From: Pseudomonadota bacterium
GTDB lineage: Bacteria; Pseudomonadota; Gammaproteobacteria; Burkholderiales; Burkholderiaceae_C
Direction: 5' to 3'
NCBI GenBank assembly: GCA_018241185.1
Contig: JAFEEH010000221.1
Location: forward strand, 1-58,907
DNA length: 58,907 bases
In this document: positions 1,280 to 8,677 of the stretch, in pieces
Layout of the letters: each line of letters starts with the position of its first letter
How positions within the stretch are numbered: position 1 is the stretch's first letter
The notes under the pieces: model-generated
The model's input: the letters and a program-made list of their open reading frames with translations, nothing else
The model's database searches: none
Told to the model about the DNA's origin: nothing
Position numbers and translations under genes: made by a program

Positions 1280-2317
1280 ATGACCTACCGTCCCTTCGTT
1301 GCCCTGGCAGCCAGTGCCCTCGCGATGGCCGCGACCCTGGCCATGACCCCGGCCCATGCCGGCAAGACCCTCGATGCGGTCAAGCAGCGCGGCACCGTCA
1401 AGTGCGGCGTGACCAACGGCGTCGCCGGCTTCTCGGCGCCCGATACGCAGGGCAACTGGTCGGGCCTGGACGTCGACAGCTGCCGGGCCATCGCCGCTGC
1501 CGTGCTCGGCGACGCGAAGAAGGTCGAGTTCGTGCCGCTCAACTCGCAGCAGCGCTTCGCCGCCCTGCAGGCTGGCGAGGTCGACATCCTGGCGCGCAAC
1601 ACCACCTGGAACCTCACCCGCGACGCCTCGCTGGGCCTGAATTTCACCACCATCAACTACTACGACGGCCAGGGCTTCCTGGTGCCCAAGAAGATCAAGG
1701 TGACCAGCGCCAAGCAGCTCAAGGGCGCGACCATCTGCACCCAGTCGGGCACCACCAACGAGAAGAACGTGGCCGACTGGTCCAAGGCCCAGGGCATCCC
1801 GGTCAAGACGGTGGTGTTCGAAAGCTTCGAGGCCTCGTTCAAGGCCTTCTTCGCCGGCCGCTGCCAGGCCTTCACCACCGACACCTCGGCGTTGGCCGGC
1901 CTGCGCAACAAGGAAGCGCCCAACCCCGACGACTACGTCATCCTGCCCGAGCTGATCTCCAAGGAACCGCTGGCGCCGGCCGTCAAGCGCGGCGACGACG
2001 AGTGGTTCGCGATCGCCAAGTGGGTGCCCAACGCGCTCATCGAGGCCGAGGAGGTCGGCATCACGCAGGCCAACATCGACGCGCTCAAGGGCTCGAGCAA
2101 GGACCCGGCGCAGCAGCGCCTGCTGGGCACGGGCGACGACCTGGGCAAGCTGCTGGGCCTGGACAAGGAGTGGTCCTACCGCGCGATCAAGGCCGTGGGC
2201 AACTACGGTGAGATCTTCGAACGCAACGTCGGTCCCAAGTCGGTGCTGAAGCTGCCGCGCGGCGCCAACAACCTCTGGAACAAGGGCGGCCTGCTGTACG
2301 CACTGCCGGTGCGATGA
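1280..2317 (+). CDS. aapJ: Polar amino-acid ABC transporter substrate-binding protein (AapJ type)
   Basis: Periplasmic solute-binding protein (SBP family 3) for a general L-amino-acid ABC importer. Residues 1-27 form a Sec signal peptide ending AHA, followed by GKTLDAVKQRGTVKCGV, the usual AapJ mature start, and the two-lobe fold. At 345 residues it matches the family. A strong Shine-Dalgarno (GGAGAGG, from about 1263) precedes the ATG, and TACACT about 40 bases upstream is a possible -10. Its stop overlaps the start of the permease gene by four bases, so the three transporter genes form one operon. The substrate is inferred from family only. Confidence 0.92.
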   Translation: MTYRPFVALAASALAMAATLAMTPAHAGKTLDAVKQRGTVKCGVTNGVAGFSAPDTQGNWSGLDVDSCRAIAAAVLGDAKKVEFVPLNSQQRFAALQAGEVDILARNTTWNLTRDASLGLNFTTINYYDGQGFLVPKKIKVTSAKQLKGATICTQSGTTNEKNVADWSKAQGIPVKTVVFESFEASFKAFFAGRCQAFTTDTSALAGLRNKEAPNPDDYVILPELISKEPLAPAVKRGDDEWFAIAKWVPNALIEAEEVGITQANIDALKGSSKDPAQQRLLGTGDDLGKLLGLDKEWSYRAIKAVGNYGEIFERNVGPKSVLKLPRGANNLWNKGGLLYALPVR

Positions 2318-3327
2318 GCCGCGGGGCGCGGCGCGGCGCCGCATCCCGGCTCGCGCTGCCCGCGGGCCTGCAGGTGCTGCTGGGCGTGGCACTGGTCGCC
2401 GGCCTGCTGTGGCTGGCGCGTGGCCTGCCTGCCGTGGCGGGCTTCTGGCGCTGGGCCCATGCGCATTTCGACTTCCTCGGCCAGCCGGCCGGCTTCGGGC
2501 TGTCTGAAGGCTGGCTGGCATTCGATTCGGGCGAGCCCTTCTGGCGCGCCTTCCTCGCCGGGCTCGTGAACACGCTGCGCGCGGCCGTGCCTGCGGCCGT
2601 CCTGGCGGTGCTGCTGGGCACGCTGATCGGCATCGGCCGGCTCGCGCCGCATCGGCTGGTGCGCGGCATCTGCACGGCCTACGTGGAGACGCTGCGCCAC
2701 GTGCCGCTGCTGGTGCAGCTGCTGATGCTGTACTTCGCGCTCACGCAACTGCTGCCCGACTCGACCGAGCCGCTGCCCATCCTGCCCGGCGTGTGGCTCA
2801 GCAAGGGTGGCCTCGCGCTGCCCTGGCCGGTGGCCGAGGAGGGCGCCTTCTGGCCCAGCCGGATCGACTGGCCCGAACCGACCAGCTTCAACGTGATCGG
2901 AGGCGCCGCGCTGAGCCCGGAGTACCTGGCCATCGTGCTCGGCCTTGGGTTCTACACCGCGTCTTTCGTCGCGGAGATCGTGCGAGCGGGCATCCTCTCG
3001 GTTTCTACCGGCCAGAAGCTGGCAGCGCGCGCCCTGGGCCTCGTGCCAGGGCAGGAACTGCGGCTCGTCGTGCTGCCGCAGGCGCTGCGCGTCATCGTGC
3101 CCGCGCTGACCAACCAGCTGCTCAGCCTGACCAAGAACTCCTCGCTGGCCGTGGCGGTGGGCTACCCGGAGCTGGTGTCGGTCGCCAACACCTCGCTCAA
3201 CTCTACCGGCAAGGCCTTCGAGTGCATTGCGATCGTGATGGCCGTGTACCTCACGTTGTCGCTGCTCATCTCGGCGGCGATGGACGTCTACAACGCCCGC
3301 GTGGCGCTGCGGGGGTGGTCGTCGTGA
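2314..3327 (+). CDS. aapQ: Amino-acid ABC transporter permease (AapQ/BztB type)
   Basis: Inner-membrane permease of the HisM/GlnP class (337 residues) with a long N-terminal region before the transport domain, typical of AapQ. The cytoplasmic EAA loop that contacts the ATPase is visible as AARALGLVPGQELRLVVLPQ at about residues 233-252. It starts inside the end of aapJ (ATGA overlap) and ends in a GTGA overlap with the second permease, so translation is probably coupled. No ATPase gene follows the operon here. Confidence 0.9.
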   Translation: MSRGARRGAASRLALPAGLQVLLGVALVAGLLWLARGLPAVAGFWRWAHAHFDFLGQPAGFGLSEGWLAFDSGEPFWRAFLAGLVNTLRAAVPAAVLAVLLGTLIGIGRLAPHRLVRGICTAYVETLRHVPLLVQLLMLYFALTQLLPDSTEPLPILPGVWLSKGGLALPWPVAEEGAFWPSRIDWPEPTSFNVIGGAALSPEYLAIVLGLGFYTASFVAEIVRAGILSVSTGQKLAARALGLVPGQELRLVVLPQALRVIVPALTNQLLSLTKNSSLAVAVGYPELVSVANTSLNSTGKAFECIAIVMAVYLTLSLLISAAMDVYNARVALRGWSS

Positions 3328-4358
3328 CCGGTTGGCGCGCCGAGCTCTTCGGCTCGCCGGCGCGTGCCGCGGTGAGCCTGCTGCTGCTGGCCGGGCTCGG
3401 CTGGGCCGCCTGGCATGCCATCGACTGGGCGCTGCTGCACGCGGTGTTCCGCCCGGATGCCGAGGCCTGCCGTGCGGTGCACCATGGCGCCTGCTGGGGC
3501 GTCATTGCCGAGAAGTGGCGGCCCATGCTCTTCGGCCGCTATCCCTACGAAGAGCAATGGCGGCCGGCGGTCGCGGTGGCGCTGCTGTCGGCCACGACCC
3601 TGCTGAGCGCCTGGCCACGCTGCTGGCGCTGGTGGCTGCTGCCACTGTGGGCGGGCACGCTGGCCATCGCGGTGCTGCTGATGTTCGGCGGCGTGGCCGG
3701 GCTGTCGCCGGTGCCCACCAACCGGTGGGGCGGGCTGCCGCTGACCATCGGCCTGGCCGTGATCGGGCTGGCGCTGGCTTTCCCGTTGGCGCTGGTGCTC
3801 GCGCTGGCGCGGCGCTCGCCCTGGCCGGCGGTGCGCGCGCTGGCGGCGACCTACGTGGAGCTGATCCGCGGCGTGCCGCTGATTTCGGTGCTGTTCATGG
3901 CCTCGTACCTGCTGCCGCTGCTGTGGCCCGCGGGCTGGAAGCCCGACGTGCTCGTGCGCGTGCTGGCCGGCCTGAGCCTGTTCGTGGCGGCCTACCTGGC
4001 CGAAATCATCCGCGGCGGCCTGCAGGCGGTGCCGCGCGGGCAGACCGAGGCGGCGATGGCGCTGGGCTTCGGCCGCTGGCCGGTGCAGCGCGACATCGTG
4101 CTGCCGCAGGCGCTGCGCCTGGTGGTGCCGGCGCTGACCAACAGCGTGGTGGGCACGCTCAAGGACACCTCGCTCGTCACCATCGTCGGACTGTTCGAGC
4201 TGACCGGCGCGCTGGGCCTGGCGCTGGGGGGCGACCCGACCTGGCGGCCGTTCTACCTCGAGGGCTACCTCTTCATCGCGGCGGTCTACTGGGTGCTGTG
4301 CTTCGGCCTCTCGCGATACAGCGCCTGGCTGGAGCGGCACCTGGCCAGCGCCGCGTGA
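3324..4358 (+). CDS. aapM: Amino-acid ABC transporter permease (AapM/BztC type)
   Basis: Second permease subunit, 344 residues with a GTG start that overlaps the aapQ stop by four bases; earlier in-frame ATGs lie deep inside aapQ and are rejected. The transport domain occupies the C-terminal half and carries an EAA loop (MALGFGRWPVQRDIVLPQAL, about residues 245-264). AapM and BztC pair with AapQ and BztB. In known operons an ATPase gene (aapP/bztD) comes next; here the next element is the hom leader, so the ATPase must be supplied from elsewhere or is missing. Confidence 0.9.
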   Translation: MTGWRAELFGSPARAAVSLLLLAGLGWAAWHAIDWALLHAVFRPDAEACRAVHHGACWGVIAEKWRPMLFGRYPYEEQWRPAVAVALLSATTLLSAWPRCWRWWLLPLWAGTLAIAVLLMFGGVAGLSPVPTNRWGGLPLTIGLAVIGLALAFPLALVLALARRSPWPAVRALAATYVELIRGVPLISVLFMASYLLPLLWPAGWKPDVLVRVLAGLSLFVAAYLAEIIRGGLQAVPRGQTEAAMALGFGRWPVQRDIVLPQALRLVVPALTNSVVGTLKDTSLVTIVGLFELTGALGLALGGDPTWRPFYLEGYLFIAAVYWVLCFGLSRYSAWLERHLASAA

Positions 4359-4367
4359 AACCCGGCC

Positions 4368-4373
4368 TATACT
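4368..4373 (+). promoter_or_regulatory. -10-like element upstream of the hom leader
   Basis: TATACT lies about ten bases after the aapM stop and about 100 bases before the leader peptide. It matches other -10-like TANACT elements in this window (for example 13792 and 21426). No convincing -35 is visible. A start near 4380 would give a leader RNA of about 230 nt. Confidence 0.5.
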
Positions 4374-4469
4374 CGCCGCTCCATGTCGTGCCACCCGTTC
4401 CACCCCGCATCCGCCGCCCGTCCGGGCCGTCCGATGCCGTCCGCCGCGCGGCGGACACCGGACGCACGA

Positions 4470-4502
4470 ATGATGATTTCGATTACCACCACGGCCACCT
4501 GA
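4470..4502 (+). CDS. hom leader peptide (Thr/Ile-rich, regulatory)
   Basis: A ten-codon ORF reading MMISITTTAT then TGA. Four of the ten codons are Thr (ACC, ACC, ACG, ACC) and two are Ile (ATT, ATT), the two end products downstream of homoserine dehydrogenase. Codons 5-8 (Ile-Thr-Thr-Thr) form the likely stall site. Either ATG could start it; only a weak purine stretch precedes them. The function is inferred from composition and from the hairpins around it, by analogy with the thr operon leader of enterobacteria, to which it is not obviously similar in sequence. Confidence 0.8.
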   Translation: MMISITTTAT

Positions 4503-4566
4503 GCTCGTGCAGGTGGCCCGTTCCGGCAGCCACCTGGTGATCGATCTTCCTCCGAACGACTGACCC

Positions 4567-4595
4567 ACCCGGCCCGGCAGCCGGGTTTGTTTTTT
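4567..4595 (+). terminator. Attenuator terminator before hom
   Basis: A GC-rich stem, ACCCGG (4567-4572) / CCGGGT (4581-4586), or the alternative CCCGG / CCGGG with a three-base loop, is followed by TTTGTTTTTT. It ends less than 20 bases before the hom ATG and directly before its ribosome binding site, so it acts inside the leader rather than ending aapM alone. Confidence 0.85.
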
Positions 4596-4612
4596 GTCGT
4601 CAGGAGAAGTCC

Positions 4613-5974
4613 ATGTACCGCGATCCCGTTCCGTCCCTCGAAGCCCCCGGCCTGCTGCCGGCCGCCACCCGTGCGCTGCGCGTGGGCATGATCGGCATCG
4701 GCACCGTGGGCGGCGGCACCTTCCGCGTGCTGGCGCGCAACCAGCGGCTGATCGCCGCCCGCGCTGGCCGGGGCATCGAGATCGTGGCTGTGGCGGCGCG
4801 CGACCTGCCGCGCGCAGCGCGCATCGTCGGCGCGGCGGTGCCCGTCACGGCCGATCCCTTCGAGGTCGCGACCCATCCCGAAGTCGATGTGGTGGTCGAG
4901 GCGGCCGGCGGCACCGGGCCGGCGCGGGACTGGGTGCTGGCGGCCATCGCGCACGGCAAGCATGTGGTGACCGCCAACAAGGCACTGCTCGCGGTGCACG
5001 GCGAAGAGATCTTCGCGGCGGCGCGGGCGCGCGGCGTCGCGGTGGCCTACGAGGGCGCTGTGGCCGTGAGCATCCCGATCGTGAAGGCGCTGCGCGAAGG
5101 GCTGGTCGCCAACCGCGTCGAATGGCTGGCCGGCATCATCAACGGCACCAGCAACTTCATCCTGAGCCAGATGCGCGACGAGGGCATGGGCTTCGCGGAG
5201 GCGCTGACGCAGGCGCAAGCGCTGGGCTATGCCGAGGCCGACCCGGCCTTCGACGTGCAGGGCATCGACGCCGCCCACAAGCTCACGCTGCTGGCGGCCA
5301 ATGCCTTCGGCATGCCGCTGCGCTTCGCCGACGTGCAGGTCGAGGGCATCGACGGCCTGGAGGCGGCCGACGTGCGCGGCGCCGAGCAACTCGGCTTTCG
5401 CGTCAAGCTGCTGGGCGTGGCGCGCCGCACACCCGAGGGGGTCGCGCTCCGCGTGCAGCCCACGCTGCTGCCGGCGACGCACCTGCTGTCCCAGGTGAAC
5501 GGCTCGATGAACGGCGTGATGGTCAAGGGCGACGCGGCGGGCGTGACGATGTTCTACGGCGCCGGGGCGGGCGCGGAGCAGACCGCCTCGGCCGTCATCG
5601 CCGACCTGGTGGACCTGGCGCGCCTCGATGGTGTGCCACCAGCACAGCAGGTGCCGCACCTGGGTGTGCACCCGCACGCCACCGAGGTGCTGCCGGTGCT
5701 GCCGCGCGCAGCCGCCTTCGGCATGCACTGGCTGCGCGTGCCGCTGGATGCTGCCGGCAGCCTGCAGGCGCTGACGGACACGCTGGCCGCACACGGCGTG
5801 CCGTTGAGCCAGGTGGTGCTGGCACACGGTGCGCCGGCCGAGGCGCCCGAGGCGCTGTGCCTGACCGGACCCGTCGTCCAGGCTGTGCTGGATGACGCGC
5901 TCCATGCATGGGAGGGGCACGCGGCGGCACGGGGCGCGGTCAAGGCCCTGCCGGTCGAGACCCTGGACGGCTGA
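4613..5974 (+). CDS. hom: Homoserine dehydrogenase
   Basis: NAD(P)H-dependent reduction of aspartate semialdehyde to homoserine, the branch point to Thr, Ile and Met. The N-terminal Rossmann motif is GIGTVGGGT (28-36). TANKALLA (120-127), INGTSNFIL (176-184) and EADPAFDVQGIDAAHKL (208-224) make up the substrate-binding and catalytic core. The C-terminal ~90 residues are where an ACT domain usually lies but are diverged. Length is 453 residues, with no aspartokinase part. It stands alone: thrC, often beside hom in this group, is not present. AGGAGAAG (4602-4609) precedes the ATG. The attenuator just upstream suggests control by charged Thr/Ile tRNA. It may be a second hom paralog. Confidence 0.92.
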   Translation: MYRDPVPSLEAPGLLPAATRALRVGMIGIGTVGGGTFRVLARNQRLIAARAGRGIEIVAVAARDLPRAARIVGAAVPVTADPFEVATHPEVDVVVEAAGGTGPARDWVLAAIAHGKHVVTANKALLAVHGEEIFAAARARGVAVAYEGAVAVSIPIVKALREGLVANRVEWLAGIINGTSNFILSQMRDEGMGFAEALTQAQALGYAEADPAFDVQGIDAAHKLTLLAANAFGMPLRFADVQVEGIDGLEAADVRGAEQLGFRVKLLGVARRTPEGVALRVQPTLLPATHLLSQVNGSMNGVMVKGDAAGVTMFYGAGAGAEQTASAVIADLVDLARLDGVPPAQQVPHLGVHPHATEVLPVLPRAAAFGMHWLRVPLDAAGSLQALTDTLAAHGVPLSQVVLAHGAPAEAPEALCLTGPVVQAVLDDALHAWEGHAAARGAVKALPVETLDG

Positions 5975-5984
5975 TTCACCGGAG

Positions 5985-6048
5985 TGCTATCAATTCGATA
6001 GCTGCTCGCGCCCAGCCGGCGGGCGCTGCAGCCCGATTTGGCTTGAAA
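5985..6048 (+). repeat. Dispersed 62-bp palindromic repeat, copy A (intergenic)
   Basis: Starts TGCTATC, then TAGCTGC, GCGC, a spacer, GGGCGCTGCAGCCCGATTT and GGCTTGA. It fills the gap between convergent hom and glnD. It is used here as reference for the family; the GCGCC...GGCGC part can form a hairpin and may help to end transcription from both sides. Confidence 0.85.
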
Positions 6049-6055
6049 ACCCGAA

Positions 6056-8677
6056 TCAGGCGTCCAGCGCTTCGAGCAGCTCGGTCTCGATGGCGAGCTG
6101 CGCCTTCTGCCCCTGCAGTTCGGGCCCGCTGATGAGGAAGCTGTCTTCCACCCGCTCGCCCAGCGTGCTGACCTTGGCCAGCTGCAGGTTCAGGTGGTGC
6201 CGCGCCAGCACGCGTGCCACCGAATAGAGCAGCCCGACCCGGTCGCTGGCCGAGATGCTCAGCAGCCAGCGCTGCGCCTTCTCGTCGGGTGTGAGGTTCA
6301 CGCGTGGGCGGATCGGGAAGCTCTTCACGCGCCGCGACACGCGCCCGCGGCTGGGCGGCGGCAGCTCACCGGCGGTGTTCAGTGTCAGGGCGAGGTCGGT
6401 CTCGACCATGCTGATCAGTTCGCGGTAGTGCTCCGGCAGGAAGGTGGTCACGACCTGGAAGGTGTCGAGCGCGTAGCCGTTGCTGGCCGTGTGCACGCGC
6501 GCGTCCAGGATGCTGAAGGAGGCCTGGTCGAAGTAGCCGCAGATGCGCGCGAAGAGGTCGGGCTGGTCGGGCGTGTAGACCACCACCTGCAGCCCTTCGC
6601 CCAGTGGCGACAGGCGCGCCCGCACGATGGCTGGCGCATGCGGGTCGACCGGCACGTTCTTCGGCGGCACGAAGCGCGACAGCTTCTTGGCGTGCCACGC
6701 GATCTCGCCGGCGTCGTGCCGCATGAAATAGCCCACGTCCAGCGTGTCCCACAGCGCCTTCTGGGCGTCGAAGGGCAGGGCGTGGAGCTTGATCTCGGCC
6801 AGCGCCTCACGCTTGCGGGCCTCGACCTCGGCGTCGGGGTCGGGCATGCGGCCGCCGAGCACGCGCGAGGTGGCGCGGTACAGGTCTTCCAGCAGCTTGC
6901 CCTTCCAGGCGTTCCACACGCGTGGCGAAGTGCCGCGGATGTCGGCCACCGTCAGCAGGTACAGGGCCGTGAGGTAGCGCTCGTTGCCCACGCGGCGCGC
7001 GAAGGCGGCGATCACCTCGGGGTCGGACAGGTCCTGCTTCTGCGCCACCGTGCTCATGACCAGGTGCTCGGCGACGAGGAACTCGATCAGCTTCGCGTCC
7101 TCGCGCTCGATGCCGTGCTGCCTGCAGAAGCGGTGCACGTCGCGCGCGCCCAGCTCCGAGTGGTCGCCGCCGCGGCCCTTGGCGATGTCGTGGAAGAGGG
7201 CCGCGACGTAGAGGATCCAGGGCTTGTCCCAGCCGGCCGCCAGCTGCGAGCAGAAGGGGTACTCGTGCGCATGCTCGGCGATGAAGAAGCGCCGCACGTT
7301 GCGCAGCACCATCAGGATGTGCTGGTCCACGGTGTAGACGTGGAACAGGTCGTGCTGCATCTGCCCCACGATCTTGCGGAACACGCGCAGGTAGCGGCCC
7401 AGCACCGAGGTCTGGTTCATCAGCCGCATGGCATGCGTGATGCCTCGCGGCTCCACCAGCATGCGCATGAAGGTCACGTGGTTGACGTGGTCGTTGCTGA
7501 AGCGGCTGTCCATGACGTGGCGCGCGTTGTAGAGCGCGCGCAGCGTGCGGGCCGAGAGGCCGTTGACGCCCACCGTCTTCTGGTACAGAAGGAAAGTTTC
7601 CAGGATGGCGTGCGGCTCGCGGATGTACAGGTCGTCGCTCGCCACCTCGATGGTGCCGGCCTTCTCGAAAAAGCGGTCGTTGATGCGGGTGAGCGCGGCC
7701 GACTGCGGGTTGAGCCGCTCGGCGATGTTGAGCATCAGGATCTCGGTGAGCTGCGTCACCGCCTTGGCTGCCCAGTAGTAGCGCCGCATCAGCGCCTCGC
7801 TGGACTTGCGCTGGCCGCCCTCGTAGCCGAAGGTGCTCGCCACGGCGGTCTGCAGGTCGAACACCAGCCGGTCCTCGCGCCGGTTGGCCACCACGTGCAG
7901 GCGCGCGCGGATCAGCGACAGCGTCGCCTCGTTGCGCTTGAGCTGCAGCACCTCGAAGGGCGTGGCCAGGCCGTTTTTCGCGTAGTCGTCCCAGCGCTGC
8001 CCGAAGCCGGCCGCCTGCGCCACCCAGCGCACGGTCTGCAGGTCGCGCAGGCCGCCGGGCGACTCCTTGCAGTTGGGCTCGAGCGCGTAGGGCGTGTCGT
8101 CGTACTTGTGGTGGCGGTGCCGCATCTCCTGCGACTTGGCGGCAAAGAAGGCCTGCGGGTCGATGCTGCCGTCGAAGCGCTGGCGGAATTCGTCGTACAG
8201 GCGGCGGTGGCCGGTGATCAGGCGCGACTCCAGCAGCGAGGTCTGGACGGTCACGTCCTTGGCGGCCTCGGCCAGGCACTCGTCGACGCTGCGCACGCTG
8301 GAGCCGATCTCCAGGCCCGCGTCCCAGCAGCGGCCGATGAAGGCTTCCAGGCGCTGGGGGGCGATGCCGCCGGTGTCGCCGTCGGCAGCGCCTTCGGGCG
8401 CCGAGGGCAGCAGGAGCAGCACGTCGACGTCGGAATACGGAAACAGTTCGCCGCGGCCGTAGCCACCCACGGCGACCAGGGCGAAGGCGTTGCCGAACCC
8501 GGCGTCCTGCCACAGGGCGCGCAGCGCCTCGTCGGCGGCGCCGGCCATGCCGCGCAGCAGGCTGTGGATGTTGCGCACGCCGGTGGGCGAGCGCAGCCGG
8601 TCGAACAGGGCGCTCTTGCGCGCGCGCAGTTCGTCGCGCAGCGTGGCGGGCAGGTCGACGACCACGGAAAAGGCCAT
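6056..8677 (-). CDS. glnD: [Protein-PII] uridylyltransferase / uridylyl-removing enzyme
   Basis: Bifunctional sensor of glutamine that uridylylates and deuridylylates PII proteins, controlling nitrogen assimilation and NtrB/NtrC. Domains in order: nucleotidyltransferase with [17 protein letters not shown] (71-87); GlnD linker; HD hydrolase domain with [12 protein letters not shown] at about residue 500; and two C-terminal ACT domains that bind glutamine (roughly 690-770 and 800-873). At 873 residues it has the usual length. It lies 62 bases after map in the same direction, the arrangement also known in enterobacteria. The NtrC-type site and sigma-54 promoter of amt in this window fit the same circuit. 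Confidence 0.96.

Follow-up and report, generated by a model that had tools for sequence, protein, structure and literature searches.

Our main finding is that hom2, one of two homoserine dehydrogenase genes in a member of the Burkholderiales, is very probably controlled by a leader-peptide attenuator with threonine and isoleucine control codons. The gene lies in a stretch of 58,907 nucleotides, called the window hereafter. Three elements were found together in the sequence ahead of it: an open reading frame (ORF) carrying control codons, conserved helices that exclude one another, and a terminator-like site with possible occlusion of the Shine-Dalgarno (SD) sequence. Comparison among relatives supports the leader gene, its control codons, the conserved helices, and a complementarity between a linker and the SD strand. 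We therefore describe the element as a candidate conserved Thr/Ile leader-peptide attenuator, in which the direction of the switch is possibly reversed. The preliminary description of this DNA had proposed a Thr/Ile attenuator on hom; the comparison bears this out, with the corrections that the leader is a probably near-leaderless gene of 39 codons and that its target is one hom of two. The features are as follows, with window coordinates, all on the forward strand.

4368..4373, +, -10-like hexamer TATACT (search for TANNNT before an in-frame ATG)
4383..4502, +, leader gene, 39 codons and TGA, MSCHPFHPASAARPGRPMPSAARRTPDARMMISITTTAT before the stop (in-frame ORF; 31-50 codons in 51/51 leaders)
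4470..4502, +, control-codon tail, MMISITTTAT and stop, ATGATGATTTCGATTACCACCACGGCCACCTGA (4 Thr, 2 Ile)
4479..4487, +, segment 0, control codons (UCGAUUACC), partner of 4536-4544 (minimum free energy fold; swap test)
4491..4501, +, segment 1, from codon -3 to the second base of the stop (1:2 paired in 93.6% of cells, 51 leaders)
4510..4521, +, segment 2, partner of segment 1 or 3 (2:3 paired in 90.7% of cells)
4523..4537, +, segment 3 (RNAalifold; 3:5 paired in 87.8% of cells)
4536..4544, +, segment 3b, partner of the control codons (minimum free energy fold; swap test)
4542..4561, +, pyrimidine-rich linker (anti-SD), complementary to the hom SD strand (duplex energies, own versus swapped)
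4567..4573, +, segment 4, 5' arm of the terminator (4:5 paired in 95.6% of cells)
4580..4586, +, segment 5, 3' arm of the terminator (terminator search; conservation of helix 4:5)
4587..4596, +, U-rich tract, TTGTTTTTTG following the terminator (terminator search; T count in leaders)
4595..4612, +, hom SD strand with AGGAG at 4602-4606, partner of the linker (read in the sequence; duplex energies)
4613..5974, +, hom2, homoserine dehydrogenase of 453 aa (Pfam Homoserine_dh, E 5.5e-62; NAD_binding_3, E 2.8e-21)

The source genome is Xenophilus-like; Xenophilus aerolatus supplies its closest named relatives, with Hom 87-90% identical. The other hom of the source genome (G000:C108) is 57% identical to that of the window and matches an ACT domain (E 1e-9); a Pfam search of the window's Hom gave no ACT match, and a search with the leader model around the other copy (locus L082) found nothing. 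The hom behind the leader is the second, or spare, copy, hence the label hom2. It is not followed by thrABC: the next long ORF lies on the opposite strand (6056-8677) and presumably encodes a glnD-like protein. Positions 1280-4358, directly 5' of the leader, hold genes that by eye encode an amino-acid ABC transporter, with two permeases and a binding protein, and the -10-like box sits just past the stop of the last permease gene. On the other side of hom2, at 5985-6050, is a dispersed repeat of about 65 bp. Together with this one, the source genome has at least 40 places that match it with an identity of 81% or higher; the scoring took in 40 of 505 candidates.

With the window's own region as DNA query, nine of 40 genomes were matched, its own being counted among the 40. 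Eight hold the leader, as judged on the matched loci or their duplicates; the locus of the ninth (L091 in G006) was rejected as a leader by inspection. Used as a query, the leader L006 matched 50 of the 399 genomes sampled in the family, and a leader could be read in 45 of these, which represent 17 of 141 genera. The five that were not counted comprise G082 and G225, whose loci (L139, L140) are not leaders, and G277, G360 and G398, with short, weak matches of 26-43 bases; L138, at another site in G292, was likewise found not to be a leader. The alignment used throughout contains 51 distinct leaders, 45 from the sampled family genomes and six others, duplicates being omitted (L003, L004, L084-L088, L092, L106-L108, L110, L111 and L113). 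Conservation in close relatives had been set beforehand as a test of the proposal, and the Thr/Ile-rich end of the ORF, the stop within segment 1, the pairing and the hairpin ahead of hom are kept in Xenophilus, Variovorax and Acidovorax, and across the 45 of 399 family genomes.

Downstream of the leader, Hom is encoded in 48 of the 51 cases. The other three, all from genus g88 (L177, L178 and L179), are followed by a protein of 114-119 aa, which aligns with the C-terminal part of a congener's Hom2 (Smith-Waterman scores of 237, 167 and 174, against 77 at most for shuffles). Scores against the window's Hom (47, 36 and 38) fall below shuffled maxima of 59-68, and a Pfam search of two of these remnants gave no match. 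The full hom2 is kept in the congener (L180), whereas L177, L178 and L179 seem to have lost its catalytic part with the Thr leader kept intact. When 399 family genomes were searched with the protein, the 21 best-scoring hom genes (at least 516 bits) all lay just 3' of a match to the leader query. Just under 516 bits, the hom of G255 (L183) has a different Ile/Thr leader, MRPQPIAITITTTTAQRDVAVGI before the stop, matched by model R1 (E 2.6e-5, eight loci searched) and with a terminator, by eye, directly before the SD; for that of G228, neither the eye nor the model found a leader.

As the whole leader, the preliminary description had taken the ten codons of MMISITTTAT, with their four Thr and two Ile. 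This sequence is indeed present at 4470-4502, but it is the last quarter of the 39-codon ORF that starts at ATG 4383. The start was sought in the 51 leaders as a TANNNT hexamer lying 4-12 nt upstream of an in-frame ATG. All 51 have one, in the form of a TANNCT box (TACACT in 38, TATACT in five, TATGCT and TAAACT in three each, TAGACT in two), separated by 6-10 nt from an ATG that is 31-50 codons ahead of the stop; the gap in the window is 9 nt. This upstream ATG, equivalent to 4383, is thus found in 51/51 leaders, and the inner Met at codon -10 in 42/51. Across the leader ORF, frame +1 is open in 1/51 leaders and frame +2 in 39/51; because frame 0 is open by the way the ORF was picked, it is the hexamer-ATG spacing that carries the weight. 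A scan of 3800-5000 with the sigma-70 consensus gave no promoter-like site. Transcription usually starts about 7 nt from the hexamer, and the predicted start in the window would fall at about 4380-4383, no further than about 3 nt from the leader ATG. Since ATG 4383 is just 9 nt past the TATACT box, the message is probably leaderless, or nearly so, and the leader gene is probably read from it in this form.

The control codons are concentrated at the end of the gene. The last ten codons contain three to six Thr per leader (mean 4.2, 51 leaders), and the remainder of the gene has 6.0% Thr and 1.3% Ile. Thr occupies codon -5 in 47 of the 51, -7 in 40, -4 in 37 and -8 in 34, and Ile codon -9 in 38 and -6 in 35. 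A Thr codon is present between -12 and -7 in 46/51 and between -6 and -3 in all. In the window's own genus (five of the 51 leaders), the tail has its first Thr at -5 and the control codons upstream of it are Ile only, at -8 and -6. Upstream of the tail, we detected no amino-acid constraint among 44 of the 51 leaders, in 10 groups: differences are spread evenly over codon positions 1, 2 and 3 (773, 807 and 772), and the single-base codon changes comprise 281 synonymous and 569 non-synonymous ones. This suggests that the leader gene is read for its frame and its tail, and that the peptide itself is not what counts. The stop codon falls inside hairpin 1:2 in 51/51 leaders.

The RNA parts that had been described at the outset were all recovered. 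A perfect 8-bp stem joins GGCCACCT (4493-4500) to AGGTGGCC (4511-4518), with the stop codon (4500-4502) beginning at the end of its 5' arm; GCCACCTG (4529-4536) can pair with segment 2; and the terminator, ACCCGGC-CCGGCA-GCCGGGT at 4567-4586, and its T-rich run come just before the ribosome binding site of hom (AGGAG at 4602-4606, ATG at 4613). That account of the switch was incomplete, lacking the pairing of segment 3 with the terminator arms, the linker:SD and control-codon:3b pairings, and the leaders of thrS elsewhere. Within segment 3, CCGGCAGCC is able to pair with the 3' arm of the terminator (4576-4584), CUGG with the 5' arm (4569-4572), and GCCACCUG with segment 2. Two overlapping terminator-like sites were found in 3800-5000, against a mean of 0.2 in shuffles, and the RNA of 4467-4612 folds better than 200/200 dinucleotide shuffles (z -4.2).

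Two mutually exclusive sets of helices are kept among the 51 leaders. The set 1:2 + 3:5 is paired in 91.0% of cells, against 27-48% when the partner is slid by 1-3 columns, and the set 2:3 + 4:5, which contains the terminator, in 92.8%, against 22-58%. In each set, none of 500 shuffles exceeded the paired cells, the both-side cells or the covariation score. Changes on both sides occur at 2 of 11 pairs in 1:2, 2 pairs in 3:5, 1 of 10 pairs in 2:3 and 3 of 8 pairs in 4:5. Slid registers do as well: 1:2 + 3:5 at slide -2 gives 4 both-side pairs and 18 cells, equal to the 4 and 18 observed, and 2:3 + 4:5 at slide +3 gives 4 pairs, 17 cells and a score of 0.099, against 4, 15 and 0.096. The number of changed pairs was matched by 25/500 shuffles for 1:2 + 3:5 and 3/500 for 2:3 + 4:5, and the number of further pair types by 21/500 and 426/500, respectively. 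Since slid registers and shuffles match the both-side counts, the covariation is thin, and it is the pairing percentage that bears the claim for the helices. The central 3:5 pair is G-C in 14 of the 51 leaders, U-A in eight and unpaired in 29; counted by genus (17 genera), it is G-C in seven, U-A in four, A.A in four and G.A in two, C being found solely opposite G. In the RNAalifold consensus of the stretch from segment 3 to the terminator, segment 3 pairs with the 5' and the 3' arm alike. The pairing CUGG:CC[AG]G is formed in 99.0% of cells, and is nearly invariant, with no both-side change at all; these data are compatible with a pairing of CUGG with the 5' arm, short of proving it. At least six T are found in the 10 nt past the hairpin in 48/51 leaders; the exceptions, L116, L120 and L123, keep the hairpin without the U-tract. 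Compared with 3:5 alone, helix 4:5 has the higher stability in 23/51 leaders, the lower in 26 and the same in two; with the CUGG pairing allowed, it is still the more stable in 16/51.

The ribosome is given as covering about 12 nt beyond the translated codon in a published study (PMC4833913), and a shadow of 12 nt was used in equilibrium folding of the window and the 51 leaders. With codon -8 of the window in the A site, the probabilities of 1:2, 3:5 and 4:5 are 1.00, 1.00 and 0.00; with the ribosome at the stop, those of 2:3 and 4:5 are 0.94 and 0.90. Going from stall to stop, the terminator becomes more probable by over 0.1 in 25/51 leaders and less probable in one; in 25 the change is 0.1 or less. 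A stall at codon -5, the commonest Thr codon, gives the OFF state in folding (mean 4:5 probability 0.94). In the window's genus Ile rather than Thr would be the main signal, because no Thr precedes codon -5 in the tail.

From these results we infer which fold is ON, that termination itself occurs, and what the physiological signal is; with moderate confidence, we favour a switch in which an early stall means ON and arrival at the stop means OFF, by the following mechanism. Transcription would start at or within about 3 nt of ATG 4383, and the leader gene would be translated leaderless or nearly so. When Ile-tRNA or Thr-tRNA is short, the ribosome would slow on the early control codons, covering segment 0, with its front edge short of segment 1. 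Segment 1, left free, would form hairpin 1:2, so that segment 3 is not taken up by segment 2 and can pair with the terminator arms, through CUGG:CC[A/G]G and then CCGGC-GCC:GGC-GC[U/C]GG; no terminator would form, and hom2 would be ON. Under good supply, the ribosome would reach the stop inside segment 1 and block 1:2; 2:3, perhaps together with 0:3b, would take up segment 3, the terminator 4:5 would form, and the linker flanking it would tie up the hom SD as a second lock, leaving hom2 OFF. Without translation of the leader, hom2 is predicted to be ON.

The classical direction would have the stalled ribosome mask segment 1, with 2:3 as antiterminator, 3:5 as terminator and the untranslated leader OFF. 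Several observations speak for it: the commonest Thr codons, -5 and -4, would put the ribosome over segment 1, Thr occurs between -6 and -3 in every leader, and 3:5 is conserved, its 3' strand adjoining the U-tract as in trp and thr of enterobacteria; the window's own genus fits it best. Against it stands the local hairpin 4:5 before the U-tract, which is conserved (95.6% paired, both-side changes at three pairs). Helix 2:3 overlaps segment 3 and leaves the terminator arms free, and because 4:5 forms along with 2:3 in folding, the 2:3 state should also terminate; 3:5, for its part, also ends near the U-tract. We regard the classical direction as unlikely, though worth keeping in mind.

The second lock of the favoured mechanism, early stall ON and stop OFF, draws on the linker. 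The duplex of a leader's own linker and SD strand has a mean energy of -15.8 kcal/mol, against -12.8 for swapped partners, and 0/5000 swaps were as good; with one leader per genus (200 draws), z is -5.4 and 0/40000 swaps were as good. The own SD is the best partner for 6/51 linkers and in the better half for 45/51 (median rank 11 of 51). Examples are UCAUUCC with GGAAUGA (L090, L122), CUUCUCC with GGAGAAG (L009) and CUCUCUGAAC with GUUUGGAGAG (L123). The three leaders without a U-tract, with duplex energies of -7.0 (L116), -10.7 (L120) and -13.8 kcal/mol (L123), are possibly translation-only versions of the switch. The pairing 0:3b is also stronger between own than between swapped partners (0/5000 swaps; with one leader per genus, z -3.2 and 62/40000). 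In fixed columns it is weak (58.2% paired), slid registers having as many changes, and its register varies between genera. Folding of the full message leaves the SD paired in both states, and freer by more than 0.1 in 3/51 leaders; the idea that the 3:5 fold frees the SD is unsupported by folding.

Similar leaders are found beyond hom2. An order-wide search of 399 genomes with the model, whose filters were strict, so that weak matches were lost, matched six genomes, three of them members of the family. Outside the family, L144 and L145 are leaders 5' of thrS, and inspection showed L146 to be a terminator matched by chance. A further genome in the genus of L145 holds a third leader of thrS (L148, the same place as L187). 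In a follow-up, 3/10 genomes were matched in the family of G679 and 2/5 in that of G439; L185, L186 and L188 were discarded on inspection as chance matches. The thrS leaders thus occur in two families beyond that of hom2, one with two genomes and one with a single thrS leader. They end in VTTTTTTTSMAT, VTTTTTTSTAT and FTTTTTTSTAT, each followed by a stop that lies in the same kind of hairpin; they have a segment GGCUGCC and no U-tract, and complementary strands were seen by eye ahead of the SD. G439 (L145) and G483 (L148) each have another thrS, 61% identical to that of L145, and in both genomes the leader is on one of two thrS copies. Other Burkholderiales have a short leader of another kind close to thrS, with a run of Thr and a terminator-like hairpin just before the gene (L152, L171, L173 and L175, reading MAVRTTTTHP, MFRTSTTTQS, MSFRTTTTGTLNQG and MFRTCTTTWC before the stop, starts picked by eye); this leader is a candidate for a second, simpler Thr attenuator.

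These data bear on the proposal that the attenuator is mainly translational, the linker:SD helix acting on the hom SD, with 4:5 structural and termination secondary or clade-specific. The linker:SD complementarity is the strongest sequence-specific signal, the hairpin is kept without a U-tract in three leaders, and the thrS leaders have complementary strands ahead of the SD, by eye, and no U-tract. However, such a reading leaves unexplained why at least six T follow the hairpin within 10 nt in 48/51 leaders, equilibrium folds keep the SD paired in the stall state, and just 6/51 linkers pair best with their own SD, whose median rank is 11 of 51; we consider it improbable, and slightly more so than the classical direction. 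A conserved terminator with a decaying small ORF and no Thr/Ile regulation, for example an intergenic termination site, would agree with the unconstrained upstream codons, but is very improbable given the restriction of the Thr/Ile enrichment to the tail, the stop placed inside segment 1, the ATG-hexamer spacing in 51/51 leaders, the conserved mutually exclusive helices and the similar leaders ahead of thrS.

With the reading that we prefer, an early stall being ON and arrival at the stop OFF, the leaders may together form a Thr/Ile class of the Burkholderiales with reversed ribosome logic, in which a finished leaderless leader means OFF through terminator and SD occlusion, the control codons themselves pair, an untranslated leader means ON, and spare copies are served (hom2 in Comamonadaceae, thrS in two other families). 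We put this synthesis forward tentatively, as a proposal that may well fail in one part or another. To our knowledge, Thr attenuators are known only from gammaproteobacteria. According to one paper (PMC3766115), it may be in that class that the amino-acid attenuators included in Rfam at the time arose. The parts of the literature covered by our search (including PMC1262725, PMC2965389, PMC3766115 and PMC4833913) contain no description of the hom2 leader; Vitreschak 2004 and Lopatovskaya 2010, which lie outside it, could list it. If our reading holds, a separate class acts on the second hom in a betaproteobacterial family, where 17 of the sampled genera have it, and control of the branch point of the aspartate pathway by translation speed arose or spread beyond gammaproteobacteria. 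One RNA may combine termination, SD occlusion and leaderless translation, with the clear prediction that absence of leader translation means ON.

The nearest known system is enterobacterial thrL-thrABC (Rfam Thr_leader), where a Thr/Ile-rich leader peptide and a terminator precede genes of the aspartate family, including homoserine dehydrogenase. The hom2 leader shares with it the run of Thr/Ile control codons, the terminator, the homoserine dehydrogenase target and the same two amino acids. It differs in its 31-50 codons, its probable (near-)leaderless reading, the stop inside the hairpin and the linker:SD helix, and in controlling one hom of two rather than thrABC. There is no Thr_leader match at the site: Rfam gave no family for the whole window at gathering score, and a lax search of 4340-4660 (up to E 10) gave five families, with no amino-acid leader and no Thr_leader among them. 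In trp and his attenuators, the position of the ribosome on the control codons decides between mutually exclusive helices, and the hom2 leader resembles them in having such helices overlap the control-codon ORF. Unlike in trp, its segment 3 could compete with either arm of the terminator, and helix 2:3 seems to promote the terminator, contrary to the textbook arrangement. Some leader genes of the kind found in Sinorhizobium meliloti and actinobacteria are leaderless. Leader-peptide attenuators outside gammaproteobacteria are described for S. meliloti trpL/peTrpL (PMC7298713) and for actinobacteria (PMC1262725). These differ from the hom2 leader in amino acids, genes and RNA structures. Finally, spare synthetase genes such as thrZ in Firmicutes are controlled by T-boxes, which bind uncharged tRNA directly; unlike these, hom2 has a leader gene with control codons, and like them it would place a second gene copy under the control of Thr starvation.
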